From: a virus
Length of the DNA stretch: 42,125 nt
IMG/VR virus record: IMGVR_UViG_3300042691_040290
Coordinates: 1-42,125 of that record
Strand: one strand, 5' to 3'
In this document: positions 380 to 31,393 of the stretch, in pieces
How positions within the stretch are numbered: the first letter of the stretch is position 1
Layout of the letters: the number at the start of each line of letters is the position of its first letter
The notes under the pieces: model-generated
Databases searched by the model: none
Seen by the model: only the letters and a program-made list of their open reading frames with translations
Told to the model about the DNA's origin: nothing
Position numbers and translations under genes: made by a program

Positions 380-1501
380 TTATTTAATAATTCCTGCTAA
401 TTGTTGCATACGACGAATAGCGGCGTCGCTTTCTACAATTGGTTGTTTAGGTGCAACTCCTGCTGCCTTAGAGGCAAAACCAACTGATTCTTTAATTGAA
501 GTTTTCTTAGCTGTAGATAAAGTACTAACTAAAGATTCATAAATTACTTTAGCTTCTTTAACATTAGTAGCTTTGTCCATAGACTTAAGAACATTCACTT
601 TTTGTGATTCAGATAAAGATTTAGCTTTGAAGATTTTATTAACATAAGTATTCTTAGCATTGAGCAAGTTTACTTCGTTAAGTTCTTTTTTCAAGAATTT
701 GATAACTTTGATAGCTTCTTCTAAGTCTTCTTTAGCCTTTTTAGCTTCTTTTTTAGCTTCTTCGACTTCTTCTTTCTTAGCTTCTTCTACTTTTTTACCT
801 TCTTCTTCTTTTTCTTTTTTCTCTTCAACTTTTTCTTTGTCTTTACCTTCTTCCATTGAATCCAATTCAGCTAATAATTCATCTAAATCAATAGATTCAT
901 CATCATCCTTTTTTTCTTCACCAGTATCTTCACCACCTTCATCAGGGGCTTCCATACCGGCTTCAGCACCACCCATTACATCTTGTAAAACGTCACGGAT
1001 GATGTCTTTGAGTTCGTCAACAGTCAATTCAGTAACTTCATCGTCGTCATCAGCTTCTTCCATTTTTTCTTTGTCTTCAGCTTCATCAACTTTTTCTTTA
1101 CCTTCTTCTTCTGTTTTCTTAGCTTCTTCCATGTCTTCTTTTTTTCCTTCTTCCATCTGGCCTTCTTTTTCAAGTTCAGCTAAGATTTCTTCAAGGTCCA
1201 TTTCTTCCATAGATTTAGCTCCTTCTTCATAACTATCTTCTTCGATTTCAGGCTTTTGTTTTCCGCCCTCGTATCCAACAGCGGTTTCCATACCTTCTTT
1301 TTCCATGCTGTAGCCTTCTTCTTCTTTTTCTTTCATTCCTTCTTCCATGTCTTCTTCTAACTCATTTAATTTAGTAGATAACATAGACATAATTTTAGGA
1401 GTGAAAGTTTCTTCAAGAGCGGCTTTAGCATTCGCTACTGCTGCATCACGTACAGATTTAGCGTCAGCAATTGCTTGCTTAAATAATTCTTGATTTGTCA
1501 T
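380..1501 (-). CDS. gp22: Prohead core scaffolding protein (T4 gp22-like by position and composition)
   Basis: 373 residues, extremely rich in Glu and Lys and predicted to be largely helical or coiled coil, with acidic blocks (DDDDEVTELTVDEL near 153-165) and KE repeats over residues 50-270. Composition, size and the place directly before the capsid gene fit a prohead core scaffold, which forms the inner template of the head and is later degraded by the gp21 protease. Several (L/I)-x-E sites are present. The extreme C-terminus, AAIRRMQQLAGIIK, resembles the N-terminal peptide IKKMQLLAGLI of three other proteins here (15336-15632, 19222-19527, 3203-3970). It is the only gene in the window with a clear Shine-Dalgarno sequence, and it follows a long structured leader. 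Direct sequence similarity to T4 gp22 cannot be judged by eye. Confidence 0.75.
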   Translation of the reverse strand: MTNQELFKQAIADAKSVRDAAVANAKAALEETFTPKIMSMLSTKLNELEEDMEEGMKEKEEEGYSMEKEGMETAVGYEGGKQKPEIEEDSYEEGAKSMEEMDLEEILAELEKEGQMEEGKKEDMEEAKKTEEEGKEKVDEAEDKEKMEEADDDDEVTELTVDELKDIIRDVLQDVMGGAEAGMEAPDEGGEDTGEEKKDDDESIDLDELLAELDSMEEGKDKEKVEEKKEKEEEGKKVEEAKKEEVEEAKKEAKKAKEDLEEAIKVIKFLKKELNEVNLLNAKNTYVNKIFKAKSLSESQKVNVLKSMDKATNVKEAKVIYESLVSTLSTAKKTSIKESVGFASKAAGVAPKQPIVESDAAIRRMQQLAGIIK

Positions 1502-1777: not shown

Positions 1778-2569
1778 TTATTGTATTCCTGCTAGTTTTT
1801 TTAGACGAGCTATTTCTTTTATAGTGTCAGTATTTGGAGCTAAACTTTGCCATTGTGTAGCATCATCTGTTTGTGGCATAATGTCACGTTTAGGAGCGCC
1901 TGGGACTGGTTGATTGTCTTGTTTCATTTTCTCAACATTAGTCCATATGAATTCTCCTATTTCTTTAGCGTTATCTCCTTTGTTGTATTTTTTAAATACT
2001 TCTATTACTTCAGGAGTAATTGTATTTTCAACATAACTAATTAAAGTATTTTTATTTATTTTGAGTAAGTTAGTACCTTCAACTTTAGCAGTTGGTACTT
2101 TACCTAAATCAGCAGCGATACCTAATTGAGTAGCTTTAAGTGCTCTAATTGGATTTTTAACATCAGTTAAATCAATAGCAGCCATTTTAGCTTCTGGGTT
2201 TAAGGCTGCTACTTCAGACCATCTATGATGTCCATCAATAATAAATTTGCCTCCATTTCCAGTTACAATTCTTTTATTATTAATTACCACTAATCCTCCT
2301 TTTAAATCTCTTTCAGCTGCTTGAGGATTAGTTAAAGGAAATTTTAATGATTTATCAACATCAATTTCGTTTTGAGTTGGTTTTAAGTCTCCTACTGTTG
2401 GACTAACTGTGGAAAAGTTGATTGGATGTTGATCAGATAAAGTTTTAATAGCATTTATAAACTTAGGATCTTTGATATTATCACCTAGTTCTTTAACAAA
2501 TAGATCATAGTCTATTTTTAATAATTTTTTAATCTCGTCCTCTTCAGTTTCTTTAATTCTTATTTTCAT
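1778..2569 (-). CDS. ParB/sulfiredoxin-fold-like protein with C-terminal LAGI motif
   Basis: 263 residues from the ATG at 2567-2569, which overlaps the stop of the protease gene as ATGA. A longer frame exists to 2599, but the four-base overlap and the N-terminus MKIRIKETEED (compare MRIRIKEEE at 22539) favour the internal start. The central segment GGKFIIDGHHRWSEVAAL matches the ParB-like nuclease-domain signature (DGHHRW), preceded by GGLVVINNKRIVTGNG. The family is known from DNA-binding or nucleotide-hydrolysing proteins; its role in a head operon is unclear. The C-terminus, IKEIARLKKLAGIQ, resembles the scaffold C-terminus, and an IKE tripeptide sits at residues 5-7. I infer a core-associated, possibly packaged protein. 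T4 has no such gene between 21 and 22. Confidence 0.65.
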   Translation of the reverse strand: MKIRIKETEEDEIKKLLKIDYDLFVKELGDNIKDPKFINAIKTLSDQHPINFSTVSPTVGDLKPTQNEIDVDKSLKFPLTNPQAAERDLKGGLVVINNKRIVTGNGGKFIIDGHHRWSEVAALNPEAKMAAIDLTDVKNPIRALKATQLGIAADLGKVPTAKVEGTNLLKINKNTLISYVENTITPEVIEVFKKYNKGDNAKEIGEFIWTNVEKMKQDNQPVPGAPKRDIMPQTDDATQWQSLAPNTDTIKEIARLKKLAGIQ

Positions 2570-3195
2570 TTTAAACAGCAGATTCCAGTTTGTGAACAAA
2601 TAATTTCAGAGATAAGACTATTCACTTTAGAGTACTTATTATGTTTGCTATAATTTGGGTTTACACCCTCAGTTAATCCTACTGGACGTACAAAAGCACC
2701 TTGTGTAGATGGTGTACTAACAAAATCCCAACATAATAACTCAAAGTCGTCTTGTACTTCAACTGTACCTTCACCTAATGGTTTCACTGAACCCATACCA
2801 CGAGATGAAATACCTACAGTTATATTATTTAAAAATAATTCTTTTAATATATTACCACTTGGTGTAGGTAATATTTCAATATCACCCATTAAATCATTAC
2901 CATCCCACCATAATTTTTTAATATTGTGGCTTACATTTTTTAAGTTAATGATTGATGAGTCTGGATGGTCTAATTCACCTAATGCTCTATTTTCAGCTAT
3001 AGGTCCTTCTAGGTACTTATCAACTTCACGTTTTAATGTTTCAAAACGATAAACTCTGCCATTTTGATTTTTCGCTTCAGCACGTTGTACAACACCAGAA
3101 ACAATTAAGTTTTTAGATGTAGACAACTTTGCCTCAGTTAAAGACTGAGGCGATGGTTGGAATGAAAAATATTCTATTAATACTTGTTTACTCAT
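2566..3195 (-). CDS. gp21: Prohead core protease (T4 gp21-like serine protease)
   Basis: 209 residues. Strong family signature: ALGELDHPDSS (His77), NVSHNIKKLWWDGNDLMGD, IEILPTPSGN and GISSRGMGSV (Ser130/131). These are the conserved blocks of the T4 gp21 prohead protease, which has a herpesvirus-assemblin-like fold. The enzyme matures the prohead by cutting scaffold, capsid and internal proteins after (L/I)-x-E. It carries such a site itself (LTE, residues 19-21), consistent with self-processing of its N-terminus. The stop overlaps the start of the ParB-like gene as ATGA. Its presence underpins the cargo-processing hypothesis for the rest of the window. Confidence 0.93.
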   Translation of the reverse strand: MSKQVLIEYFSFQPSPQSLTEAKLSTSKNLIVSGVVQRAEAKNQNGRVYRFETLKREVDKYLEGPIAENRALGELDHPDSSIINLKNVSHNIKKLWWDGNDLMGDIEILPTPSGNILKELFLNNITVGISSRGMGSVKPLGEGTVEVQDDFELLCWDFVSTPSTQGAFVRPVGLTEGVNPNYSKHNKYSKVNSLISEIICSQTGICCLK

Positions 3196-3202
3196 TTATT
3201 TT

Positions 3203-3970
3203 TTATTTTAGACCAGTGGCGTCTTCAGTTCCTGGTACTACTATGTATCCCCTTCTGGTTAACTCAGATTTAGATTTTGGAGAGCTAGCGACTACTACAT
3301 CTTCCTTTCCACCTGCTGTACCTGCTTTTTTATAAATAGCTTCTTTTTTTAAATCCTTTTTTAATGCTTCTTTTATTTTAGATACTTTATCTTCTTTTCC
3401 TTCTTTAATAGTTTTTTCTGAGCCAGTCACACCTTTATCAGGCATTATTTTAACACCTTTAGGATTTTTCTTGCCAGCTTCTTTCTTACCTAAGTTATCT
3501 TTAACATTAGCTTTCTCATCTTTCTTAGCTTCTTTCTTCAAATGACCATCAGCTTTAGCTTGCATACCTGGTTTGTCAGTTTCTGTTTGCTTAAACTCAT
3601 ATGATGATTGCTGTTGGTTAAGTAAGTTAGAGTAAAAGTTGGCATCTTTAGCTAGATTTTTTAACACAGTAGTTTTAGCTTTTTCTAAAGCCTCAGCACT
3701 GTAATCATCAAGTTGATGCAATTCATGAGCTAAACCATGACGATATTCATATGGATTAGCTTGATCAATATGAAGTTCTTTTAACTTAGGTTCTGTAGCT
3801 TTTTTAGCTTTAACTTCAGCTTTAACAGCCTCATCAGCTTTAGCTTCTTTAGTTTGACCTTCAGTTAATGGTTGTTTGTCAACACCCCATATTGATTCAT
3901 TGTATTCTACTTCATTAATTAAACCAGCTATAAGCTGCATTTTCTTAATTTCGTCAATTGTGTATTTCAT
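3203..3970 (-). CDS. Lys/Glu-rich head-core protein with N-terminal LAGL targeting-like peptide
   Basis: 255 residues. Residues 5-20 read IDEIKKMQLIAGLINE, nearly the same peptide that opens the genes at 15632 and 19527. It ends in I-N-E, a gp21-type (L/I)-x-E site. A second site, LTE, follows near residue 37. The remainder is highly charged and Ala/Lys rich, with a central less biased part (HIDQANPYEYRHGLAHEL). No enzyme signature is seen. It lies between the small basic protein gene and the protease gene, where T4 keeps small core genes (67, 68). I infer an internal core or cargo protein; the sequence gives no specific function. Confidence 0.6.
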   Translation of the reverse strand: MKYTIDEIKKMQLIAGLINEVEYNESIWGVDKQPLTEGQTKEAKADEAVKAEVKAKKATEPKLKELHIDQANPYEYRHGLAHELHQLDDYSAEALEKAKTTVLKNLAKDANFYSNLLNQQQSSYEFKQTETDKPGMQAKADGHLKKEAKKDEKANVKDNLGKKEAGKKNPKGVKIMPDKGVTGSEKTIKEGKEDKVSKIKEALKKDLKKEAIYKKAGTAGGKEDVVVASSPKSKSELTRRGYIVVPGTEDATGLK

Positions 3971-7243: not shown

Positions 7244-9136
7244 CTATTTGATTTCGTCGCGAATATTATCTTCGTTTAATAAATCACTTTGTTCAAATAA
7301 GTTTGTTTTACGATTAACAGGTAATCCATTAAACATATTTTTATTTTTCAAATATGTTTCTAAAGCTAGTGGTGAACCACCTTTATATTGGGTTTTAGCT
7401 AAACTATCTTCTTGATCAGTACCAGCTGTACTATATGTTTTAGCCCCAATACGATCTTTACCAAATGGATTATCTTGTCTATTAATATTTGAAGCTGACG
7501 CTTTAGGACGACCAACTAAATGAACAGGTTCATTAGGATTTTTCTCATTATATCCTGTTGGTACTTCACTATCACCTCTACCTTTACCATAAGCTGTAGC
7601 TAATTGATGTGGTGTGCCATACACTTGGCCTGTTTCTGATGGGTCATTACCTTCACTTTCAATTTGAGTTAATCTGAATTTACGTTTTTTGTCTTCAATA
7701 ATTAAATCACGATATTCATCATATTGATCTTCACTGAAGTGGAATAAGTTATCATAAATCCATTCTGTTGGTAATAAGTTATTTTCTATTATGTTAGCAG
7801 CTAAATCAACTTTTTCTTTCATTAAATTAACACGTTCTTGATCATAAATGATAGAAGGTGTTGTTAATGATAACTCAAAGTTAGTTAATTGTTCACCATC
7901 ATATCCTTGAGTATACAAATGTACTAAGGCTATTTTAGTTAATTCACTTAATAATATACGTTGAATACGTTCTATTGTGCGAGCAAATCTAATATCTTCA
8001 GCTGCTAATGTAGCTTTACCAGTTAAGTCTTTTTCATAACCCATAAATGCTTTAGGTATCTTAAGAGCAGCGAATAATTTGTCTCTTAAGTAAGCGACGT
8101 CTTCAATACCATTATATTCTAAACCTTTTGCTGTATCAATACGAGTTGATTGGTCATTTCCTCTTACTGGTATGTAAAAGTCTTCCATCATATTCATCAT
8201 ATTGAACTTAAGATTATATTGTCCAGTTTGTGGATCAACATAAGGTATTTTCTTAAGTTTTTGAACTGTTTTTTGCATGTAAGCTTCTACTTCATTTGGA
8301 GGTATAGCACCTACATTCATATAGAAGATACGTTTTTCAGGAGCGCGAACAATACGATGGATTAACATAGCGTCTTCCATCAATATCATTTGTTTAAATA
8401 TTTTACGGCCTGGCTCTAAATAACTTCTACCATAAGGTAAATAGTTAACATCACTTATTAATCTAAAGTGAGCCATTTCATAATTTTCAAAGTAAATATC
8501 TGATGTTGATGTACCTAAAGAATACTGAGTTTGTGGAGCAGTTATACCAGATACAGATGTTGGGTCATATTTAAATCTTACATAAGTAGGATTTTTAGGA
8601 TTAGTACCTTCTTCTCTGATAATTGAATATGCGGAGAATGGTATTACATTATAAACACCAAATTTTTCAGCTATTTCTAATTTAAGATAAAAGTCACCAT
8701 ACTTGCACATATTACGAGCCCAACTCCATAAGTTAAACTCAATATTTAATACATCATAGAATAGATTGTATAATATTTTTTGAACATTCTCATCACTAGA
8801 GCGAATATGGAGTAACTCACCATGTTCATTTTTTAAAGTACACTCATCAGCTATAATATCAAGTGCTGAAGCTACAATAGCGTCAGTATCCATTGCTTCA
8901 TAGTCAGTATAAAGTTGTACTCTTAATGTTTGGTAGTTATAAACATTATTAATGTTGTAAATACCAGCGCCAGATGTTGTATAAATTTTAGTGAATCGAT
9001 CAACAAGTGCGTTTGTTTGTAAGGTACCTAACGACTGAATACGATCTGTGTCAATTACTCTTAATTCATTTCCTCCTACATTACGAATAACAACGTCAGA
9101 TGAAAATAATCGTTTGAGGCTATCAAATAATCCCAT
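7244..9136 (-). CDS. gp20: Portal vertex protein (T4 gp20-like)
   Basis: 630 residues, somewhat longer than T4 gp20 (524). Conserved blocks include YEAMDTDAIVASALDIIADE, MCKYGDFYLKL, LPYGRSYLEPGRKIFKQM, IHRIVRAPEKRIFYMNVG and a segment with EDFYIPVRGNDQSTRIDT, followed by KIPKAFMGYE. These are hallmarks of the T4-type portal, the dodecameric ring at the packaging vertex that initiates prohead assembly and through which terminase pumps DNA. The extra length is a polar C-terminal tail (about 480-630). It follows the terminase gene after a short gap containing an ATATTTAT box. No Shine-Dalgarno sequence is visible. Confidence 0.96.
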   Translation of the reverse strand: MGLFDSLKRLFSSDVVIRNVGGNELRVIDTDRIQSLGTLQTNALVDRFTKIYTTSGAGIYNINNVYNYQTLRVQLYTDYEAMDTDAIVASALDIIADECTLKNEHGELLHIRSSDENVQKILYNLFYDVLNIEFNLWSWARNMCKYGDFYLKLEIAEKFGVYNVIPFSAYSIIREEGTNPKNPTYVRFKYDPTSVSGITAPQTQYSLGTSTSDIYFENYEMAHFRLISDVNYLPYGRSYLEPGRKIFKQMILMEDAMLIHRIVRAPEKRIFYMNVGAIPPNEVEAYMQKTVQKLKKIPYVDPQTGQYNLKFNMMNMMEDFYIPVRGNDQSTRIDTAKGLEYNGIEDVAYLRDKLFAALKIPKAFMGYEKDLTGKATLAAEDIRFARTIERIQRILLSELTKIALVHLYTQGYDGEQLTNFELSLTTPSIIYDQERVNLMKEKVDLAANIIENNLLPTEWIYDNLFHFSEDQYDEYRDLIIEDKKRKFRLTQIESEGNDPSETGQVYGTPHQLATAYGKGRGDSEVPTGYNEKNPNEPVHLVGRPKASASNINRQDNPFGKDRIGAKTYSTAGTDQEDSLAKTQYKGGSPLALETYLKNKNMFNGLPVNRKTNLFEQSDLLNEDNIRDEIK

Positions 9137-9166: not shown

Positions 9167-10759
9167 TTATATTAACCAACTGATATCTTCCATAGATCCA
9201 TTACCAGTATCCATTTTCCATGGATTGTCTCTATCAGGACCATGTGGTGTATATAAACCAGTTGCTTGAGGAAGATAATTAATTCTTCCTATACCTCCAA
9301 GCGAAGCGCGAGTTAAATCCATAGCAGATTGACTAAAACGTAAAGCGGTATCACGTAAAAACATTGCTATACCAAAAGCCATCACTAAGTCATCATTATA
9401 TCCATCACTAGATTGTGCTTTACCATTTTTCCAAATAAATGTTCTTAATTCTTCTAATGAACGACGTGATTGAATTATACAGGCACGATCTCTCATATAA
9501 GACTCTAGTTTAGATATAACTAATGGTCTTGTTTTTTGTGAGTTAGTGAAGCCAGGCACTAAATTATTTTCATTTCTACTTAAGAAATTATCCATTGTTA
9601 TGTTAGCTGAGTCAGATTTGGCTGAGTAGTATAAGTTTTGATAGCCTCTGTCAATAGCTGTTTGTATTGTGTCCCAACCTATGTTAGCATTTTCTATTAC
9701 TAATAAAGCGTTATTATACTCAGTAGCTAAAGCCACTAACATGTGTCCATAGTCTCTAGTTCCTACTTGACCTTTATATTCAGCTACTTGTTTTGCTTCT
9801 TCTATATCAATAACATGACAAGCAGAATAGTCTTTACCATCTCCACGAGCAACGTCAGCTACAACCATATAATTCTTTGAATAGTCTGGATATTCCCAGC
9901 GCCATAAATTACCATCAAATCCTCCTTTAGCTACAGGATCTGCTTGGTATGTTTGAATATACCAATTTAAAATATCAGGTTCAACAACTGTGTCACCTGA
10001 TGTGCTAAAGTCACAGTCACATTCTTGAGCAGCGTTACGAGGACCTAAGATAGCATCTTGTTCATCTCTCCATTTTTGAGTTCGTTCTGGATGTACTGTC
10101 CAAGGTAATTTAATTGATGTGAACCCATTTTTACCTTCTTCACCACCAATAAATGTTCTATGAAACCAGTTACCAGTACCAAATGGTGTTGATATTGCTA
10201 TACATTGACCACCAGTGGCTAAGGTTTGTTGAGCAGAAGCAAATATCTCATCTATACCTTCAATAAACGCAGCCTCATCTAATAATAGCAATGACACTGC
10301 TTCAGATCGACCTGCGTCTCCAGTCGCACCAATTGCTTTAATTTGAGATCCATTTGATAGTTTGAGACTTAATTTATTATTCTCTATTGCTTTTAGTTGT
10401 AACCAACTGGGTAAGTTATCATAGGCAAATTTTACTTTAGTAACCATGTTTTTAGCAGTTTCCTGCTTTGTAGCTATACAAAGTATATTTTTATCTTTGT
10501 TAAATAGCATTAACCAAAGTGAATAAGCAGATACAAGTGTTGATATACCTAATTGTCTTGACTTATTTACAATACTATATTTCTGTTTTTTGAATTGATG
10601 TAATACACCTTCTTGGAATGGATATAAATTAAATTGAATTCTACCACGCTGTGGGTGTTGAATCCAATAATATTTTTTCATGAAGTAAACAGGATCACTA
10701 GCGCACTTAACAAACTCTTGTTTTATTATTTCCTTTATATTTTGTTGTTCATTACTCAT
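9167..10759 (-). CDS. gp17: Terminase large subunit (T4 gp17-like)
   Basis: 530 residues from the ATG at 10757-10759. The frame continues upstream to 10807, but that extension runs through the terminator hairpin, so I chose MSNEQQNIKEI as the start. ATPase motifs: Q-motif YPFQEG (Q49), Walker A-like NKSRQLGIST (65-74), Walker B LLLLDE (157-162) and coupling motif ISTP (189-192). The RNase H-like nuclease domain shows VVADVARGDG (Asp302), LLVIENANIG (Glu356) and NDDLVMAF (Asp456/457), which correspond in type to the T4 gp17 triad. The protein powers DNA packaging and cuts the concatemer. It is preceded by a terminator, so it probably starts a new transcription unit for the head genes. Confidence 0.97.
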   Translation of the reverse strand: MSNEQQNIKEIIKQEFVKCASDPVYFMKKYYWIQHPQRGRIQFNLYPFQEGVLHQFKKQKYSIVNKSRQLGISTLVSAYSLWLMLFNKDKNILCIATKQETAKNMVTKVKFAYDNLPSWLQLKAIENNKLSLKLSNGSQIKAIGATGDAGRSEAVSLLLLDEAAFIEGIDEIFASAQQTLATGGQCIAISTPFGTGNWFHRTFIGGEEGKNGFTSIKLPWTVHPERTQKWRDEQDAILGPRNAAQECDCDFSTSGDTVVEPDILNWYIQTYQADPVAKGGFDGNLWRWEYPDYSKNYMVVADVARGDGKDYSACHVIDIEEAKQVAEYKGQVGTRDYGHMLVALATEYNNALLVIENANIGWDTIQTAIDRGYQNLYYSAKSDSANITMDNFLSRNENNLVPGFTNSQKTRPLVISKLESYMRDRACIIQSRRSLEELRTFIWKNGKAQSSDGYNDDLVMAFGIAMFLRDTALRFSQSAMDLTRASLGGIGRINYLPQATGLYTPHGPDRDNPWKMDTGNGSMEDISWLI

Positions 10760-10763
10760 GTAT

Positions 10764-10771
10764 ATAAATAT
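10764..10771 (-). promoter_or_regulatory. ATATTTAT box before the terminase gene
   Basis: Lies between the U-tract of the terminator and the terminase ATG, four bases before the start. Position between a terminator and a new gene is what a promoter would show. Confidence 0.45.
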
Positions 10772-10773
10772 AT

Positions 10774-10803
10774 AAAAAAAGCTCAACCTTACGGGGTTGA
10801 GCT
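10774..10803 (-). terminator. Rho-independent terminator upstream of terminase
   Basis: On the minus strand a perfect 9-bp stem (AGCTCAACC with GGTTGAGCT, 10795-10803 with 10780-10788) with a 6-base loop is followed by a run of seven T (10774-10780). It ends transcription coming from the genes above 10846. Confidence 0.85.
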
Positions 10804-10845
10804 GCACCTATGGTCTAGATAGGCTGTCCTAGGGTAGCAGGACGA
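10804..10845 (-). other. Two tandem small hairpins ahead of the terminator
   Basis: Between the stop at 10846 and the terminator lie two further hairpins on the minus strand. The first has a 5-bp stem, 10839-10843 with 10826-10830, and an 8-base loop. The second has a 5-bp stem, 10819-10823 with 10807-10811, and a 7-base loop. They are separated from each other and from the terminator by two to three bases, so nearly the whole 3' untranslated segment is paired. Confidence 0.5.
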
Positions 10846-11671: not shown

Positions 11672-12640
11672 TTAAATTTCTTCTTCGTCATCTATTTTAA
11701 TTGGTTCATCATCAATACCTAAAGCTTTTAATTCATCATCATCACTTTTCTTTTTACGTTTAGAACCCATAGCTGGTAATGTTGGTTCACCTAATGCTTT
11801 AAGAATCATTTTCATGGCGCCTTTAGTGTTAGTAGCTCCAAATTTATACTTGTCAAGATCATTTAACACTTTAATATAAGCATCATAATCTTCATCTTTT
11901 AATATTTCAATTTTGTCTACTAATTTTTGAATTAGATCTGGTAAACCAGCAGCTGCTGTTTCTTTAGATTTGGCTTGGGCTGATTTAAAATCAGCACTTG
12001 ACATTCCACCATCTTCTGCTTCTTTAATTTTACCTACTTTAATTGATGATTGAGCATATTGTTTGATAATTCGAGCAATTAAATCAGCATTATCAACAAA
12101 AAATTCTCCTGCTTTAGAACCCGCTGGTGTCATTGGAGTTGATTTGATTTTAGCTATATCAGCGGCTGATGGTTCTTCCTCATCCCCAACTCCTCCTTTA
12201 GCTTTACCCCTCAATTTAGATTTACCAATAAATAAATCTTCAGCGTCAGATGGAGTCATGAATATATCATCTTCACCTGGTTCTTCATCAGCGGCTGCTG
12301 TTGGTTTAACTGAAGTTGCTTTTAAGAGTTGATTACGAATATCAGGTGTGAAAGACCAATTAACACCAGGAGCAGAATTTTTTTCAATTTGACTTTTTAA
12401 TAATTCAACTTCCATTGGATCAATACCTTGTTCTTCACCTTGTTTAACAAAGTAATTAATTACTTGTTGTTTACGGTCTAACTTATAGTTAGATGAATTT
12501 TCAATTCTATCTTGTAAGTTAGGGAAGTCAGAATTAAGTTTGTATTTTTCTTTGGCTGGTCGAGCCATTTCTTTTACAGGTACTTTAATTTTAAGTTTTG
12601 CTTCAGTGATGTACTTTCTTAAGTCAAAATTGTCTGCCAT
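11672..12640 (-). CDS. Putative head-packaged protein with MADNF / YITEAK targeting-like N-terminus
   Basis: 322 residues. The N-terminus MADNFDLRKYITEAKLKIK is the best match in the window to the T4 capsid targeting sequence (MKTYQEFIAEA type): an amphipathic helix ending in I-T-E before Ala-Lys, which fits the gp21 (L/I)-x-E cut. The remainder is acidic and partly disordered (DEEPGEDDIF, GDEEEPSAAD), with a helical domain at about 215-285 and an acidic tail. No catalytic motif is seen. It lies just upstream of the lysis-like pair, at the downstream end of the cargo region. Confidence 0.55.
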   Translation of the reverse strand: MADNFDLRKYITEAKLKIKVPVKEMARPAKEKYKLNSDFPNLQDRIENSSNYKLDRKQQVINYFVKQGEEQGIDPMEVELLKSQIEKNSAPGVNWSFTPDIRNQLLKATSVKPTAAADEEPGEDDIFMTPSDAEDLFIGKSKLRGKAKGGVGDEEEPSAADIAKIKSTPMTPAGSKAGEFFVDNADLIARIIKQYAQSSIKVGKIKEAEDGGMSSADFKSAQAKSKETAAAGLPDLIQKLVDKIEILKDEDYDAYIKVLNDLDKYKFGATNTKGAMKMILKALGEPTLPAMGSKRKKKSDDDELKALGIDDEPIKIDDEEEI

Positions 12641-15335: not shown

Positions 15336-15632
15336 TTATTGAAAGCTTCTTATTTTATTAAACTGTCCTTGAACATAATCAATAACTCTGTCAGCGGAAA
15401 TTTTAGATCCAGCTTGTTTCATGTTTGTTAATTGCGCATCTGTTTCATCTAATATGCGATCTATTTGTTCTAACATTTCAATATATTGAGCCATTTGCTG
15501 CATTTTATCAGCAGTTGTCTCTTCATTTACTTCATCTTGTTCTGATTCATTTGATGACTCACGGTATTCACTTTCAGTAATTAAACCAGCTAAAAGCTGC
15601 ATTTTCTTAATTTCGTTAATTTGTTGTTTCAT
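15336..15632 (-). CDS. Small putative head-packaged protein with LAGL(I)TE peptide
   Basis: 98 residues. The N-terminus INEIKKMQLLAGLITE (residues 5-20) followed by SEYRES is almost identical to that of the 19527 gene. It ends in I-T-E, a gp21-type cleavage site. After it come an acidic linker and a helical coiled-coil stretch (MQQMAQYIEMLEQIDRILDE). The leader and first codons are duplicated upstream (see the repeats at 15617-15734). If cut after Glu20 the mature protein would be about 78 residues. No further function can be read. Confidence 0.6.
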   Translation of the reverse strand: MKQQINEIKKMQLLAGLITESEYRESSNESEQDEVNEETTADKMQQMAQYIEMLEQIDRILDETDAQLTNMKQAGSKISADRVIDYVQGQFNKIRSFQ

Positions 15633-18078: not shown

Positions 18079-18453
18079 TTATTTTGTTTTTCCCCAAGTT
18101 TTTCCTTTACCTTTTTTCTTACATCCAGCAGGTGTTGGACGACATGATGGATATTTAGCTCGTTTTTCACCTTCCTTTCTACCACATGGTTTACATTTTG
18201 TTTTACCATCTACTTCACGACATGTGTTACAATCAACCCAACCGCCTTCTTTACCTGGTCCACCTTTACGTGAAAACCATTTGTGTAATGACTCATCTTC
18301 TTTTAATTTTTTCCAAATCTTACCTTGACGGCAACGTACAATAGCACCTGATTTGTAAGCGGATGGTTTATCATAGCGACGATCAGCTATACGATGACAT
18401 CTATCTTTTTTTTCTTCAAGAATTTCTTTTAATATGTCAGTTAGTTTGATCAT
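18079..18453 (-). CDS. Cys-rich basic DUF5872-like protein with DILKE targeting-like peptide
   Basis: 124 residues. It opens with MIKLTDILKEILEEKK, the DILKE peptide shared with 20185, 26506 and 27300. Then comes a segment RRYDKPSAYKSGAIVRCRQG, and a Cys-rich basic block including WFSRKGGPGKEGGWVDC, CKPCGRKEGEKRAKYPSC and RPTPAGCKKKGKGK. The second block fits the DUF5872 pattern known from large phages and viruses. Spaced cysteines suggest metal binding, and the high Lys/Arg content suggests nucleic-acid binding. Its function is not established. The combination of a targeting-like leader with a basic Cys-rich domain fits a protein packed with DNA in the head. Confidence 0.7.
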   Translation of the reverse strand: MIKLTDILKEILEEKKDRCHRIADRRYDKPSAYKSGAIVRCRQGKIWKKLKEDESLHKWFSRKGGPGKEGGWVDCNTCREVDGKTKCKPCGRKEGEKRAKYPSCRPTPAGCKKKGKGKTWGKTK

Positions 18454-19221: not shown

Positions 19222-19527
19222 TTAATCTTCTTTAGCCTCATTCCATCTCTCTGTACTTCCTGACATAGTTGGAGCCTTTTTTATATCATATTCTAAATCA
19301 CTAACCATATTTCCTAATGTCTTGTGAGGAATAGCTTTTAATTTTTCATTTTTTTCATAAACTTGCTTAAGAAGTTTTAATAATTCTTCTAACTCGGCGA
19401 CATCATTTTTAGTAAATTCTTTAATACTAGATGGTTCATCACTCATCATTGCTTCTTGATATTCACTTTCAGTGATTAACCCAGCAATAAGCTGCATTTT
19501 CTTAATTTCGTTTATTGGCTTTTTCAC
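19222..19527 (-). CDS. Small putative head-packaged protein with LAGLITE peptide
   Basis: 101 residues. The N-terminus INEIKKMQLIAGLITE (5-20) plus SEYQEA matches the 15632 gene, also at DNA level: 23 bases are identical (19489-19511 against 15594-15616 and 3932-3954). It ends in I-T-E, a gp21-type site. The rest is a helical acidic stretch (VAELEELLKLLKQVYEKNEK). Its start overlaps the stop of the upstream cupin-like gene by four bases. Probably a small internal protein like its paralogue. Confidence 0.6.
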   Translation of the reverse strand: MKKPINEIKKMQLIAGLITESEYQEAMMSDEPSSIKEFTKNDVAELEELLKLLKQVYEKNEKLKAIPHKTLGNMVSDLEYDIKKAPTMSGSTERWNEAKED

Positions 19528-20184: not shown

Positions 20185-21174
20185 TTATATCGGTTGAACA
20201 ACTATTCTATCTCCTACTTGTTTAACAGCTATAATAGCATCTTCAAATGCTAATATTAAACATTTAAGACTATCTATTTTTTTAGGTGATGAAGATTTTA
20301 TGTCGTTAAATTTGTTAAATTTTTTAGCTACTTGTTTAAGAGAATCAAATTCATCAATAACATCCATAAAACGTTGGTCATCAAATTCTGCTAATTTATC
20401 ATTAATACTATCTGAGCCTAAAGTTATCATACCATACTCATTATTAACGAAAGATAATCCTTCAACATTATGAGCTATTTTACGAATAAGTTTTGGTGGA
20501 TTTTCCATAGCTACAAACCCATCTAGTTTGCTTTTTTCTATTAATGAAGTATTAGCTACATCAGCTTTAGTTACTGGTAGTAAAACATCATCTATCATAA
20601 TACCAAAATAACTAGCTATACCAGGCATATATGTTCTCCACATTCCTGAGCTGCCTTCAAATAGCATACTATCACTAGCCATAGCGTATCCAATTTCAGA
20701 AACATACTCATATACTAAAGTATACATTATTTTTCCTAATCCTTTTCCTCTATATTCTACACCTATATTAGACCAATGTACTTGAAGTACTTTTAAATCA
20801 AATGCTTTTTGAAAACTATACATCCAATCACCATTGTATTTTTCTAATCGCATAATACCAGCAAATACCATATCAACTGTTGAGGCTTCTGTATTAATTA
20901 AATAGAAAACATACTCACCAGACTGTATTTTTAAAACTAATTTATATGGTCCTTCTTCATTTACTGGAGTATGTTTAGAAAAAATATCTTTAAGTAAAGG
21001 TTCAACTAATTTATTTCTTTCAGGATCCTCTACAAAATCATACTTATCCATACCTTTAACTGATAATAATGTTTGCATACCTTCAAGACCAATGTCTTCT
21101 GATGATTTGCTACTAGCGTGTCCTTTTTGTAGGCTTAATTCACTTAATTCTTTTAAGATGTCTATTAGTTTCAT
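20185..21174 (-). CDS. GNAT-family acetyltransferase with DILKE targeting-like peptide, putative injected enzyme
   Basis: 329 residues. It starts MKLIDILKELSEL, with L-K-E at residues 7-9, the same leader as the 27860 gene. The central domain (about 75-200) looks like a GNAT fold. Motif A is IGVEYRGKGLGKIMY (137-151), with the R-x-x-G-x-G acetyl-CoA loop at 142-147 and a following helix LVYEYVSEIGY. The substrate is unknown. A C-terminal region of about 120 residues has no recognised domain. T4 packs an enzyme (Alt, an ADP-ribosyltransferase) behind a similar leader and injects it. By analogy this could acetylate a host target at the start of infection, but that is inference. Confidence 0.75.
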   Translation of the reverse strand: MKLIDILKELSELSLQKGHASSKSSEDIGLEGMQTLLSVKGMDKYDFVEDPERNKLVEPLLKDIFSKHTPVNEEGPYKLVLKIQSGEYVFYLINTEASTVDMVFAGIMRLEKYNGDWMYSFQKAFDLKVLQVHWSNIGVEYRGKGLGKIMYTLVYEYVSEIGYAMASDSMLFEGSSGMWRTYMPGIASYFGIMIDDVLLPVTKADVANTSLIEKSKLDGFVAMENPPKLIRKIAHNVEGLSFVNNEYGMITLGSDSINDKLAEFDDQRFMDVIDEFDSLKQVAKKFNKFNDIKSSSPKKIDSLKCLILAFEDAIIAVKQVGDRIVVQPI

Positions 21175-21178
21175 ATTA

Positions 21179-21496
21179 TTATTTGTTTCTAATTAAAAGT
21201 TCACCTAATACTTCTAAACGACCCATCTCACGTTGGAATTCAGTTTGGGTCATGTTTAAAGATATTTTTTTATATGTTTCTTCATATTCTTTTTTAGCAT
21301 CTTCCATATTAAGTTTTCCCTCAGCTGCTTTTTTATAGTAAGGTAATTTAACTTTAAAATGATGCCAAGTTAATAATGCTAAACCACCTTTTTGCTCAGC
21401 GTTTTCTGAGATTTTAGCTGCTCCTTTACCACGAACAGTGGCGAAACTTTCAAATGTTTCTTTTACTTCGGTTAGTATTTGTATTAGACTTTTCAT
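21179..21496 (-). CDS. Small conserved helical protein with ILTE targeting-like peptide
   Basis: 105 residues. MKSLIQILTEVKETF places L-T-E at residues 8-10. After it come GKGAAKISENAEQKGGLALL, HHFKVKLPYYKKAAEGKL and QTEFQREMGRLEVLGELL. From memory, this combination recurs as a separate family in marine T4-like phages. All-helical, moderately basic, with no catalytic motif. Probably virion associated. Confidence 0.6.
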   Translation of the reverse strand: MKSLIQILTEVKETFESFATVRGKGAAKISENAEQKGGLALLTWHHFKVKLPYYKKAAEGKLNMEDAKKEYEETYKKISLNMTQTEFQREMGRLEVLGELLIRNK

Positions 21497-23162: not shown

Positions 23163-23786
23163 TTATTTTTCAATTAAATGATTGTGGAGAACTCCACCTA
23201 TTTGAGCAGCTTCAATCTCTAACATTTGTATATCATCTTGATCTAGATGTTTTTTACGTTTAGTATAGTCTAAACCTAATGTACCTATCAACTTATTGTT
23301 GATATCTCTGATACCAAATATGTATGTACTTTTAGATCCTGTTTCTTGAGCTGTATATTTTAAACCATAAGTAGCTATAGTCTCATCTTTAAAGTCTGGT
23401 ATTTCAACAACATTATCTACTAAAATTTTATTAGCAGATGGTGCGAATAAACTAACTGGTATGTTTTGAAATAATAATTTTATTGAGTCACAACCTGGTT
23501 CTACTGATTCATAGAACATACTAAATTTTTGTATTGATTTTCCTGTTGGATAGTAATGTCCTCCGTTATGAAATTGCATAACCCAAGCTCTATCAGCGTG
23601 AAATTCTTCACGTAAATTATCAAGTTTACTATTAATAATACTAGATGCTTGTATTTCTTGTTCTAATTTATCATTACCTAATGTTTTTCTAGCTTCTAAT
23701 CTCTTATTAATTATTGCTACAATTATAGGTACAATAACACCTGATAGAAATAATATTATGTTTTGAAACGAGAGGAAATTATTCAT
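23163..23786 (-). CDS. Membrane-anchored GAF-like domain protein
   Basis: 207 residues. One N-terminal transmembrane helix (about 8-27, QNIILFLSGVIVPIIVAIIN), a coiled linker (LEARKTLGNDKLEQEI) and then a GAF-like sensor domain: DRAWVMQFHNGGHYYPTG, IFGIRDINNKLIGTLGLDYT, LDQDDIQMLEIEAAQIGGVL. The N-in topology would put the domain in the host cytoplasm or periplasm, depending on orientation. It carries no output domain. It may bind a small ligand or block a host membrane process; this is not determinable here. Confidence 0.6.
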   Translation of the reverse strand: MNNFLSFQNIILFLSGVIVPIIVAIINKRLEARKTLGNDKLEQEIQASSIINSKLDNLREEFHADRAWVMQFHNGGHYYPTGKSIQKFSMFYESVEPGCDSIKLLFQNIPVSLFAPSANKILVDNVVEIPDFKDETIATYGLKYTAQETGSKSTYIFGIRDINNKLIGTLGLDYTKRKKHLDQDDIQMLEIEAAQIGGVLHNHLIEK

Positions 23787-24397: not shown

Positions 24398-26509
24398 TTA
24401 TTTAAACGAGGATGGAATTATAAGATTTTGTTGTTTTAATAATTTTAATAGACCAGCTACAATAACTCCTCCAGGCATTATAGCAACAGCGGTTAATCCT
24501 ACTGTTTTAAGTAGATCTTTTAACTGCTCACCTATTTGAGTTTTTTGTTCATCAGTTAATGTAATTTCTCCTTTTGATGCTTTAACTATTAATTTAAAAG
24601 CCTCTATTGTTTCTTTTTTTTCTTGTTTTAATTTACTAATGAAATTAGTGAATTTTGATTTTAAACTGTTTATAAGTTTATTTTCATTAAGTTTTTCAGT
24701 ATTATCTTTTTTCTTAAAAATATCTTCTAATTGTTTTATTGTACTTTCAGCTGATGTGTGATGTATTCCTATGCCTCCAGCGTCATTCCATCTTTGAATA
24801 TTGTCTGCTCTGTCATCTATAAGTATAGAATTTGGTGTTGCAAATTCTTGTTTACGATCAGCAGCACGTAATATAAGTTTAGTACCAGGTATATTTCTTT
24901 TTACCCAAGTGAACTTACCTATTTTAGATGATTCTTGACGTGATGGAGCTGATAATAATACTGGACTGTATGATTTAATAAAGTTCCATAACTCCCTTCC
25001 ATCAGGCATCCATTGTAATTTAATCCAAAATGCGGCTCCCGCTTTAGTTATTGGTGCCCAAAATTTCTCAGGATCAGTTCCAAAACTAGCTTTCTCACCT
25101 GTTAATTCAAAATATCCTCTATCAAAATCTACTAACACACCATCCATATCACAATATATTTTATATGGTTTTTTCTCTTCAGCTTCATTTAATGTTTCAA
25201 ATATTTCTGGTCTGTATTGTCCAAATTGTCTCAATAAGACTCCCGCGGCAGCATTAGCTTCGTTTTCAATAGGTGAACCTGTTTTACCAGAGTCAGGATC
25301 TAACATACCTAATTCATCTTGTTTTCTATGAACTAATTCATGAGCTAGTGTACGTAAAATATCTGCTGTTAATCTAGAGCCTTTAACAACTAGTAATTCA
25401 TCAGTTTTAGGATTATAGGCTCCTAATGAATGCATATTACGAGCTAAATCTTCATCATCAGTGAAATTTATTTTAGGTATTTGTTTTAATTCAAGAGCGT
25501 CAACAGCAAAATCTATAAAATCTTGTATCACATCTCCATTATCACCTACTTCTTTAAGTTGTTTTTTCCACCATTTGATAGAAAATAAATTTTCTTCTAT
25601 ATTATGTTCTATACCAACTTTATCTAAATAAGCTAAAACTTGTTGACGTTGTTCATTGCTAGGATCTCCTAAGTTAGGTATTAACATACGTCTTTTTTCT
25701 CCATTAAATGCTTTTTGAGAATACTCAAATGGTATTAAGTTTGTATTGAGCCAATTCTCTAAATCAGGTGTTTTATCATATGGAACTACAATAACTAAAT
25801 TGCCATTTTCCTCGTTTTCTTTTAATGTTTCAATATCTAATACTGGTATTCCTAATATGTTAAGTATATCATCAAATTTTCCTTTTTGAGTTACAAAATC
25901 AGGAAAACATCCTTGTACTATTTTATATGTGTTTAGATACTCATTTCTAGCTTTAGAATATTCTGTTGAGTTTTTATCAGATATAGAGCGTAATTTAAGT
26001 ACTGTTTTTTTAAGTTGATTTAAATATTCACGTACTTGTGTACCTGATGCTCTTTTACCTTGTGTCACAACTTTTTCTTCAACAGGTACTGTTATTATTC
26101 TATCACCAAATGCTTTAGTTAATGAATTAAAATAACTTTGAACATCAGCATCACCAGCCACACCAGCAACTCTAGCTCTTAATTCTAAGTCATCATCCAT
26201 TATAGAAAATATATCTTTAACAGGTGATGGATTTTCAGCTATTCTGATTGTTACTTGAGATATGGGTTGAATTTCTTGATATAAGTCCCAGATCTTCTTA
26301 CTCATTTCTTTGGTTATACCATCACGTTCACTATGTCCTATTAATACTATTACTTTAGTAACATCAGGACGTGAAATCAGATCTTTAACTACTTCATAAT
26401 GTCCTTCATGTGGTGGTTTAAAACCCCCTGGATAGTAACATATACTAGGAGTTTTGTCTGGTTGATCTTCCTCGTTTATTTGTTGTAGTATAGTTTTTAA
26501 TTCAATCAT
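24398..26509 (-). CDS. Multidomain cargo polyprotein: nucleotidyltransferase, HExxH peptidase, HAD phosphatase, LETM1-like tail
   Basis: 703 residues. Start MIELKTILQQINEEDQ: a targeting-like peptide ending I-N-E (11-13). Domain 1 (22-220) is a HIGH-superfamily nucleotidyltransferase: PGGFKPPHEGH (27-37) and KRASGTQVREYL (152-163). Residues 233-315 are a small alpha/beta part. Domain 3 (321-440) is a zinc metallopeptidase: AHELVH (389-394), with NEANAAAGVLL (416-426) as a likely third-ligand helix. Domain 4 (447-600) is HAD-like: YCDMDGVLVDFD (452-463), LLSAPSR (518-524) and ILIDDRADNI (562-571). Residues 640-703 resemble a LETM1 end (LTDEQ...LLKTVG, MPGG, LIIPSSFK). (L/I)-x-E tripeptides sit at the linkers: INE13, LKE231, LKE320, LNE442, LNE609. 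I infer cutting by the gp21-like protease into separate enzymes. It overlaps the upstream kinase gene by four bases. Confidence 0.8.
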   Translation of the reverse strand: MIELKTILQQINEEDQPDKTPSICYYPGGFKPPHEGHYEVVKDLISRPDVTKVIVLIGHSERDGITKEMSKKIWDLYQEIQPISQVTIRIAENPSPVKDIFSIMDDDLELRARVAGVAGDADVQSYFNSLTKAFGDRIITVPVEEKVVTQGKRASGTQVREYLNQLKKTVLKLRSISDKNSTEYSKARNEYLNTYKIVQGCFPDFVTQKGKFDDILNILGIPVLDIETLKENEENGNLVIVVPYDKTPDLENWLNTNLIPFEYSQKAFNGEKRRMLIPNLGDPSNEQRQQVLAYLDKVGIEHNIEENLFSIKWWKKQLKEVGDNGDVIQDFIDFAVDALELKQIPKINFTDDEDLARNMHSLGAYNPKTDELLVVKGSRLTADILRTLAHELVHRKQDELGMLDPDSGKTGSPIENEANAAAGVLLRQFGQYRPEIFETLNEAEEKKPYKIYCDMDGVLVDFDRGYFELTGEKASFGTDPEKFWAPITKAGAAFWIKLQWMPDGRELWNFIKSYSPVLLSAPSRQESSKIGKFTWVKRNIPGTKLILRAADRKQEFATPNSILIDDRADNIQRWNDAGGIGIHHTSAESTIKQLEDIFKKKDNTEKLNENKLINSLKSKFTNFISKLKQEKKETIEAFKLIVKASKGEITLTDEQKTQIGEQLKDLLKTVGLTAVAIMPGGVIVAGLLKLLKQQNLIIPSSFK

Positions 26510-27297
26510 TGAATGAATGCTTGTATTTTTGATTTAGCGTCTTCTATAGTTGTAAATTCTGGGGGATTTTGAAGAAATGATTTGATATTTCTATTTAGTT
26601 CATCTCTATCTCTTCTAGCTTTAGCCATTTCTTTAGGTGATTTTACTTTACCTTTATATGTGTTAGTAAAAAATCTTGATTTTATTTCTTTTTCATCATA
26701 ATCAGTTTCAGCGTCTTCTGGATTGTTATTTACTATGATAAAGTTATCTCCAAATGCTTGTTTATAAGCATCTATATTTTTATTTACACCTTCCCATGTT
26801 CTTAAAACAATACTTGGTGTTAAACTTCTACCACCTTCATCTCCACGTTTAACATTTCTAGTTAAAGATGTTATAGGTGAAACATAAATCATTAACATTA
26901 AAGTATCATATCCTAAACCTTCTAATTCTTGCTTTTTCTTAAGTAATGGTAATGAAGCAGCTCCAGTTCCATCAATAATAATATTGTGAAGATTTTCTAC
27001 AGATACTTTATATTTCTCTTTAGTTATTTTTTGAGCTTGCCCCATCATTTTAGCAGCGGTGGCTAATCTTTGAGCATATTCTTCATCTGATTCAGTATCA
27101 GATTGAGTTATTTTTAAACCTACACCAGCTGTTTTCAATAATTCTTCATAAGTGTCATCAACATTAATAGTTTCAAATCCAGATATTGGCATTTGACGTA
27201 CAATAGTTGACTTACCAGCACCAGCAGGACCAGATAAAAAGATAGCTTTAGGACGTGATCCTATAACTTCTTTAAGTATATCAACAAGTTTAATCAT
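26506..27297 (-). CDS. Zeta-toxin-like P-loop kinase with DILKE targeting-like peptide
   Basis: 263 residues. It starts MIKLVDILKEVIGSRPK, with L-K-E at 8-10. Directly after come AIFLSGPAGAGKSTIVRQM (Walker A GPAGAGKST, 23-31), NVDDTYEEL, NIIIDGTGAASLP, and a basic lid-like segment LTRNVKRGDEGGRSL. The layout fits the zeta-toxin/P-loop kinase group, which phosphorylates nucleotides, UDP-sugars or polynucleotides. The substrate is unknown. The leader joined to a kinase suggests an enzyme that enters the host with the DNA. Stop and start overlap as ATGA with the polyprotein gene, so the two are made together. Confidence 0.75.
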   Translation of the reverse strand: MIKLVDILKEVIGSRPKAIFLSGPAGAGKSTIVRQMPISGFETINVDDTYEELLKTAGVGLKITQSDTESDEEYAQRLATAAKMMGQAQKITKEKYKVSVENLHNIIIDGTGAASLPLLKKKQELEGLGYDTLMLMIYVSPITSLTRNVKRGDEGGRSLTPSIVLRTWEGVNKNIDAYKQAFGDNFIIVNNNPEDAETDYDEKEIKSRFFTNTYKGKVKSPKEMAKARRDRDELNRNIKSFLQNPPEFTTIEDAKSKIQAFIQ

Positions 27298-27299
27298 TA

Positions 27300-27860
27300 T
27301 TAAGCTATTTTCGCCGCTAATTGTTCTAATTCTGAAAATTTTAAAGCAACTGCTCCTCCTTCTAATCCTTTTATAACAGCATTAGTAGCTTCTACCGCTG
27401 ATATTCCAGCTCCTATAATACCCGCGGCTAATAAAGCAGCATATAAACCGTGAGCTGCTTTATGTAAGTTTGATTTTTCATCAAATACATCTTCATCACC
27501 ATAACTTTTAGGATATGCTTTTTTTAATGCTAATCCAATCCATTCAATGTATTTATGTTCCCATTTATGACCAAGTTTTCGTAAATAAGCTCCTATTTTT
27601 GTTTTTGGTATCATACCTTGAGAAAGATATGATGAAAGAGCATCAGCGGCATGTCCCATTATATTTAATAAACCTGGGGCTCCTACAACTAGTGAATATA
27701 AAGTTGCTAAACCTTCTTCTAACTCTTTATCTTTAGGAGAAGGTTTTACAGTTGATACTGTTGATTTAAGATCTTTTAAAGCTGCTTCTAATCCTTTTTC
27801 AAGTGTTTGTTCAGCTTCAGCTTCATTGATGTTTTCTTTTAAAATGTCTATTAGTTTCAT
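27300..27860 (-). CDS. Putative cargo protein with two hydrophobic segments and DILKE peptide
   Basis: 186 residues from the ATG at 27858-27860. The open frame begins seven codons earlier, but those lie over the ATATTTAT-box leader, and MKLIDILKENINEAEAE matches the other leaders. (L/I)-x-E sites are at LKE (7-9) and INE (11-13). Two hydrophobic segments follow (about 52-70, TLYSLVVGAPGLLNIMGHA, and 134-156, AAHGLYAALLAAGIIGAGIS), separated by a basic helical part (KWEHKYIEWIGLALKKAYPK). It may insert in the host membrane after injection or pack as a helical bundle. No known family is recognised. Confidence 0.6.
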   Translation of the reverse strand: MKLIDILKENINEAEAEQTLEKGLEAALKDLKSTVSTVKPSPKDKELEEGLATLYSLVVGAPGLLNIMGHAADALSSYLSQGMIPKTKIGAYLRKLGHKWEHKYIEWIGLALKKAYPKSYGDEDVFDEKSNLHKAAHGLYAALLAAGIIGAGISAVEATNAVIKGLEGGAVALKFSELEQLAAKIA

Positions 27861-27880
27861 GTTTATAGTATTTGATACCA

Positions 27881-27888
27881 ATAAATAT
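27881..27888 (-). promoter_or_regulatory. ATATTTAT box before the gene starting at 27860
   Basis: Intergenic copy, 20 bases before the chosen ATG; it starts at the upstream stop codon. Its presence supports the shorter start. Confidence 0.35.
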
Positions 27889-30961: not shown

Positions 30962-31393
30962 TTACTCTACCAAATCTTTACTGAAAAACTTTCCTAACAC
31001 ATTATCATTGTATGTTAAATTAGGACATACTAAACATTCAAATTTGCACTGGTAATGCATTTCATAATATGTTAGTTGTTTTTTTGTTTTACATGGTTTA
31101 AGTATAATACATTCAAAATGGTTTTCACCTAATTCCTTAACATCTTTAAGTAATTCTTTAGATGAACCCCAATATGTTTTCCAGTCACTTTCTACTTTAA
31201 CTATTTCAAAAGTAGATTTACGACCAGGTCCTGTTTGTTCAGCGAGTTGTTTTTTGGTTAATTTTTTCTTTTTGTTAAACCAAAAATACTTTTTACCAAT
31301 ATAAAATTTACCGTCTGTTAGATTGGTGATTTTGTAAACAAAACCTAAGTAATCTTCTGGGTTATATGTATCCCAGTATTTCCATTTTATCAT
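30962..31393 (-). CDS. GIY-YIG endonuclease (Seg-like)
   Basis: 143 residues. GFVYKITNLTDGKFYIGKKY (17-36) is the GIY-YIG signature, followed by an Arg-containing helix (GPGRKSTFEIVK), DWKTYWGSSKELLKDVKE and QLTYYEMHYQ, in which Glu is the likely metal ligand. The architecture fits phage Seg-like endonucleases, some of which are free-standing homing nucleases. It sits at the border between the structural module and the primase, a typical place for a mobile endonuclease. No DNA-binding extension beyond the core is apparent. Confidence 0.8.
   Translation of the reverse strand: MIKWKYWDTYNPEDYLGFVYKITNLTDGKFYIGKKYFWFNKKKKLTKKQLAEQTGPGRKSTFEIVKVESDWKTYWGSSKELLKDVKELGENHFECIILKPCKTKKQLTYYEMHYQCKFECLVCPNLTYNDNVLGKFFSKDLVE

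Follow-up and report, generated by a model that had tools for sequence, protein, structure and literature searches.

The virus-derived DNA analysed here, a stretch of 42,125 nucleotides that we call the window, carries a 703-residue open reading frame in which several enzyme-like domains follow a short N-terminal leader. Is this chain used as one fused protein, or is it a polyprotein that travels into the phage head behind its leader and is cut into separate enzymes by the prohead protease, as a preliminary description of the locus had proposed? To answer this, we considered the domains and candidate cut-sites of the chain, the exchange of its parts between relatives, the leaders and head genes that surround it, and the known systems that it resembles.

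The chain and its candidate cut-sites

The 703-residue open reading frame claimed for this locus is real and lies on the minus strand (Table 1). The domain names given to it, namely nucleotidyltransferase, HExxH peptidase, HAD phosphatase and a LETM1-like part, fared unequally. The match to a HAD 5'-nucleotidase is solid (phrog_2643, 1.9e-26). For the N-terminal nucleotidyltransferase, the sequence match stays below threshold (PF01467, 16.7 bits vs a cut-off of 21), and the assignment draws its support from the fold: Foldseek, which with the whole chain resolved mainly the nucleotidyltransferase and HAD folds, aligned it with NadD/PPAT chains at a TM of about 0.5-0.68, depending on target length, a match to HIGH-type and not to Pol-beta enzymes. 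The HExxH motif is present as HELVH at residues 390-394, with H390, E391, L392 and H394 invariant and V393 nearly so, although its family support is weak (phrog_87, 0.005). We dropped the LETM1 name: the C-terminal part gave no Pfam match to LETM1 at E ≤ 1, and we refer to it as a helical module.

Tripeptides of the (L/I)xE type end in the chain at residues 13, 92, 231, 306, 320, 438, 442, 609 and 661. The five positions listed earlier (13, 231, 320, 442 and 609) are as stated, although that list was incomplete and missed 92, 306, 438 and 661. The number of sites is at chance, nine vs 9.9 expected on shuffling, so that the argument from tripeptide count fails and the case must rest on position, conservation and context. 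Seven of the nine sites lie at module boundaries, and the other two (92 and 661) lie in cores.

Of 14 aligned relatives, 13 retain the tripeptide at 13. In all 14 co-linear orthologues L229 and E231 are retained, as are L318 and E320; the P3 and P1 positions are thus invariant at both sites while most neighbouring residues vary. Site 306, absent from the earlier list, is among the best supported, with aliphatic-E-E in 12/12 co-linear orthologues that hold this column. The core site at 92 is not conserved (5/11 orthologues in A1), and at 661 relatives of the C-terminal module have N or D. A counter-example comes from L001 and L009, which read IFT/IFS-EA before the HAD module and have no aliphatic-x-E there.

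As judged by an AlphaFold model (mean pLDDT 77.8, pTM 0.37), sites 13, 231, 306 and 442 fall in predicted disordered linkers, with pLDDT below 50 at 12-17, 230-235, 305-308 and 440-446, and site 320 falls in a stretch predicted as coil throughout (303-326). Sites 13, 231, 320 and 442 are therefore predicted to lie outside folded cores, so that burial of the sites, which the preliminary description had named as refuting its proposal, is not predicted for these four, whereas site 609 is placed with moderate confidence within a long continuous helix, which counts against cutting there.

Table 1. Coordinates of the candidate polyprotein, its modules and other features of the window (↓, predicted cut)
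Feature	Position	Strand	Details
Putative polyprotein gene	24398..26509	-	703 aa, 79.7 kDa; stop codon 24398-24400
Leader, residues 1-13 (MIELKTILQQINE↓), capsid-targeting-like	26471..26509	-	
Module 14-231, HIGH-superfamily nucleotidyltransferase (NadD/PPAT-like)	25817..26470	-	Foldseek; PF01467 sub-threshold
Module 232-306, small alpha/beta	25592..25816	-	missing from L010 and L011, exactly between its two sites
Spacer of 14 residues, 307-320, ends LKE↓	25550..25591	-	
Module 321-442, HExxH (zincin-like) peptidase, ends IFE↓TLNE↓	25184..25549	-	
Module 443-609, HAD 5'-nucleotidase	24683..25183	-	phrog_2643; stand-alone with own leader in relatives
Module 610-703, helical, C-terminal, mobile	24401..24682	-	
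S77 prohead protease, homologous to T4 gp21; begins MSKQVLIE↓	2566..3195	-	PF03420 4.8e-27
T4-type portal (gp20)	7244..9136	-	PF07230 2.7e-67
Terminase	9167-10807		
Glu-rich ORF with very many aliphatic-x-E, probable prohead core/scaffold	380..1501	-	inferred from sequence and position
P-loop kinase/zeta-toxin-like, leader MIKLVDILKE↓	26506..27297	-	fused to HAD in L121 and L123
ORF, leader MKLIDILKE↓NINE↓AEAE (probable start is an internal Met)	27300..27881	-	
ORF, leader MIKLTDILKE↓	18079..18453	-	
ORF, leader MKLIDILKE↓	20185..21174	-	
ORF, leader MKSLIQILTE↓	21179..21496	-	
ORF, leader MADNFDLRKYITE↓A	11672..12640	-	same leader type on immuto gp077
ORFs with [MLIF][QK]xLAG[ILV]	380-1501, 1778-2599, 3203-3970, 15336-15632, 19222-19527		
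PHROG 'NAD synthetase'	30962-31393		homing endonuclease families also match; name may be wrong
GAF-domain protein, hydrophobic N-terminus	23163-23786		directly downstream of the putative polyprotein gene

Modules exchanged between relatives

A scan of viral contigs found 289 relatives, of which the best 80 were kept; a second scan, with the alignment as query, gave 80 loci on contigs that overlap partly with those of the first. The chains of the relatives reach 1230 residues and vary in module order. In addition to the nucleotidyltransferase, HExxH, HAD and C-terminal modules, they contain a Zn-finger mini-module, a GTCGYDT mini-module, a GTGKKPKGS..RRLYTDE module, a PF22028 module and, with a score short of the Pfam cut-off, a single ADP-ribosyltransferase-like module. 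The last of these, at residues 548-594 of L070 (PF15633, E 1.9e-4; Tox-ART-HYD1, below cut-off), is set between LEE↓DKQVG... and DLQE↓GRKKK and recalls the packaged T4 Alt. Five relatives are found in genome contigs of metagenome-assembled genomes, two of them labelled Flavobacteriales, and provide no firm host.

Both ends of each BLAST alignment were counted as module breaks. The break density was 0.169 at [LI]xE and 0.147 at VxE, as compared to a background of 0.06, and control motifs gave 0.061-0.067 ([LI]x[D/K/N/Q/S]), 0.058 ([AGST]xE), 0.075 ([LI]E) and 0.086 ([LI]xxE). Pooled [LIVM]xE reached 0.160 vs a rotation null of 0.067±0.005 (2000 rotations, maximum 0.085); this test counts related sequences as independent, and kinship remains in both the break and the indel tests. 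Non-family proteins encoded on the same contigs gave 0.018 vs a background of 0.015, and non-family proteins that share a module gave 0.068 vs 0.018. Clean indels carried aliphatic-x-E in register at both ends in 24 of 199 cases vs 0.8 expected, and a matched control motif gave 17 vs 12 expected. The junction sites thus exist, are specific and are conserved. That they arose by coincidence, (L/I)xE being a common tripeptide and the linkers being Glu-rich, would fit the chance-level total in the chain; however, little or no enrichment in matched controls and little in non-family proteins already disfavour this explanation, which we regard as extremely improbable.

Individual loci illustrate such exchange. 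The close relatives L010 and L011 lack exactly residues 232-306, reading ...DLQE↓NLFTINWW where the window reads ...TLKE↓[232-306]↓NLFSIKWW, and L005, L006 and L012 carry an extra module between two sites beside 320. L013 (= L092) is a counter-example: 53 residues are gone from within its middle module (232-306), and this gap is in register with no site. In L058, L059, L069 and L070 an aliphatic-x-E lies on either side of the C-terminal module; used as the sole query against phages and viral contigs this module found no match, so its other contexts come from the whole-chain search. Among the mini-modules listed, all nine Zn-finger and all four GTCGYDT copies have a site upstream, and all but a chain-terminal Zn-finger copy also have one downstream.

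Leaders, head genes and the prohead protease

The window, a fragment of a T4-type phage, encodes an S77 protease (PF03420 match at 2665-3126, E 9.9e-29), as well as a series of unrelated proteins whose leaders, like that of the chain, end in L/I-x-E (Table 1). A [LI]xE tripeptide ends at residues 8-21 in 20 of 35 ORFs of the head/cargo region (7.8 expected, p = 1.7e-6) and in 1/10 ORFs in the rest of the window. On leader- or junction-bearing contigs of 35 kb or more, S77 is present in 13 of 19 (the other six may be fragments); on contigs with a leaderless HAD, S77 was found in 0/15. The major capsid proteins of five relatives carry LLE/LIE, MLE/ILE and VVE/VME sites in a T4-like N-terminal region, and the retention of VVE/VME is an argument that P3 also tolerates V.

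A second terminal motif, [MLIF][QK]xLAG[ILV], was observed N-terminally (IKKMQLLAGLITE↓) in several small ORFs, as well as at C-termini: RRMQQLAGIIK in the Glu-rich core-like ORF and RLKKLAGIQ in the ORF adjoining the protease. It is terminal in 10 of 11 distinct occurrences across all loci and may be another core-binding signal.

The leaders of stand-alone genes match the internal joints. Stand-alone HAD genes, found with a leader in many relatives, start MIKLLDILKE↓AEEQQYKIYC or MYKLTDLYKQLKE↓EE..QYKIYC; at the HAD joint, the fused chain of the window has ETLNE↓AEEKKPYKIYC and the kinase-HAD fusions of L121 and L123 have LAE↓AEQQYKLYC. The P-loop kinase gene lies upstream of the putative polyprotein gene, and its window copy ends where the HAD joint of L121/L123 would be. 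Similarly, the stand-alone RRLYTDE protein of L013 begins MIKLLEILNE↓ADPKKGTGKKPKGSG, and the same module inside the L059 chain follows GGLEE↓ADPKKGTGKKPKGSG, the residue after E being the same for leader and internal junction (E↓ADPKKGTG). Across leader-bearing ORFs, the offset of internal sites is 0 in 386 cases vs 39-202 at other offsets.

Could the internal sites be relics of former leaders that became internal when genes fused? On this alternative the chain would be packaged via its leader, the leader alone would be cut off, and the enzymes would stay fused as a polyvalent protein. Leaders have indeed become internal: in L075, L080, L106 and L119 the chain contains the complete nucleotidyltransferase leader near residue 290, where it follows another N-terminal domain as a leader turned linker (for example LNE↓TNLGRYLVSLLLE↓QDQ), and a leader likewise precedes the HAD module in the window. 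There are also precedents, since T4 Alt and the internal proteins lose terminal propeptides only (PMC9026906) and the N4 vRNAP is packaged uncut (PMC5512222). However, relics should decay, yet at 231 and 320 neither P3 nor P1 varies among the orthologues although their linker neighbours do, and sites occur at both module ends, including C-termini, where no leader would remain. We consider a chain that stays fused unlikely.

Nor is the prohead protease the only candidate to make the cuts: release of the modules by the embedded HExxH domain, rather than by S77, would follow the zincin-domain self-processing proposed for polyvalent proteins by Iyer et al. (PMC5512222), and nearly every long relative does contain an HExxH module. 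Against this, the same motif ends the leaders of peptidase-less stand-alone proteins, of the major capsid protein and of S77 itself, it equals the gp21 consensus, and contigs with a leaderless HAD are without S77. These observations make self-processing very improbable.

It is, in our view, likely that this T4-type phage makes the chain as a polyprotein of head cargo, whose joints the prohead protease cuts in trans. The comparative evidence strongly supports the polyprotein reading of the preliminary description: sites lie at the boundaries of shuffled modules, a module is lost site to site, cutting of stand-alone leaders is predicted to leave the N-terminus that cutting of the joint would leave, and the window itself encodes an S77 protease. 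From this we infer packaging, cleavage, injection and the enzyme roles of the chain. The capsid-targeting-like N-terminal leader would carry the entire chain into the prohead core, where S77 from the same genome would cut after aliphatic-x-E at the leader and linkers (13, 231, 306, 320, 438/442 and 609); it counts against this reading that the motif is short and that cleavage depends on access too. The products, with predicted masses of 24.6, 8.7, 13.1, 19.1 and 10.4 kDa, would be the nucleotidyltransferase, the small module, the HExxH peptidase, the HAD nucleotidase and the helical module, to be injected as freed modules along with the DNA. The modules themselves are shuffled between phages in site-to-site units, and they occur, too, as single genes that each have a leader. 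It seems fairly likely that T4-type phages of aquatic bacteria share a module-exchange system in which the prohead-protease cut-site is the unit border: enzymes would be gained or lost site to site, each chain would need one leader, and fusion would make leaders into internal cut-sites.

If true, many enzymes could be loaded into the head behind a single leader and yet be delivered as free proteins, and the leader/junction aliphatic-x-E would offer a sequence rule by which head cargo could be recognised in T4-type phages that have not been cultured.

Comparison with known head cargo, polyvalent proteins and immuto

The arrangement was initially put forward as new; it is not categorically so, as polyvalent packaged proteins and gp21-cut leaders are already known. 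T4 gp21 cleaves behind L/I-X-E, and for targeting the ten N-terminal residues of IPIII are enough (PMC9026906). As in the window, unrelated T4 cargo proteins (IPI-III and Alt, with a CTS that gp21 cuts) share a short N-terminal leader ending L/I-x-E, and an S77 protease and a T4-type portal are encoded in the same genome. Unlike the chain described here, T4 cargo has one protein per gene and is cut at termini only; in T4 multiple cuts are confined to the core proteins gp22, gp67 and gp68, which are destroyed in this way. In phiKZ and SPN3US, with an S80 protease (AxE), many head proteins are likewise cut after x-x-E, sometimes at several propeptide sites, but the cuts identified in SPN3US, the protease's own excepted, all remove N-terminal propeptides, and no enzyme string is involved (PMC10052503).

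Polyvalent proteins, as far as the consulted portions of Iyer et al. 2017 describe them (PMC5512222), are shuffled multidomain effector chains of phages and conjugative elements, thought to be injected. The family described here likewise combines unrelated domains, at least two per chain, that are shuffled from element to element, and in addition has conserved protease-type sites at its domain boundaries, as virus-type polyproteins do. The same portions of that paper name zincin peptidase, nucleotidyltransferase and ADP-ribosyltransferase domains; compared with the published set (zincin, Pol-beta nucleotidyltransferase, ART), the window has the HExxH and a nucleotidyltransferase of HIGH type. 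A difference is that release of polyvalent domains is there ascribed to embedded peptidases; in those portions we found no common boundary cut-site, leader exchange or trans cleavage by a prohead protease. Within the portion of the open-licence literature covered, we did not find prohead-protease sites described as module borders, and earlier reports may exist elsewhere. Trans-acting domain release would, if true, be added for polyvalent proteins, for which embedded peptidases had been proposed.

A cultured relative is the Flavobacterium phage vB_FspM_immuto (host Flavobacterium sp. LMO8), whose gp088 (907 aa, annotated as NMN adenylyltransferase) is a homologous chain. No virion study was found among the papers naming this phage, and the records consulted report no processing. 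Like the window chain, gp088 has aliphatic-x-E joints (LAE↓ALDDGSEV and VMAE↓GRYDTVTN), its predicted cuts being after E286 (before ALDDGSEVVALYAGGFK), E482 (before NFFPK), E496 (before GSSG), E583 (before YMLDQK) and E702 (before GRYDTVTNR); the adjoining gp087 is a HAD gene with its own leader, predicted to be cut after LLE14/E15, and gp070 is an S77-type prohead protease. Unlike in the window chain, a different domain precedes the nucleotidyltransferase, and HAD is in a separate gene. As immuto is cultured and has the same arrangement, the idea is directly testable in this phage.
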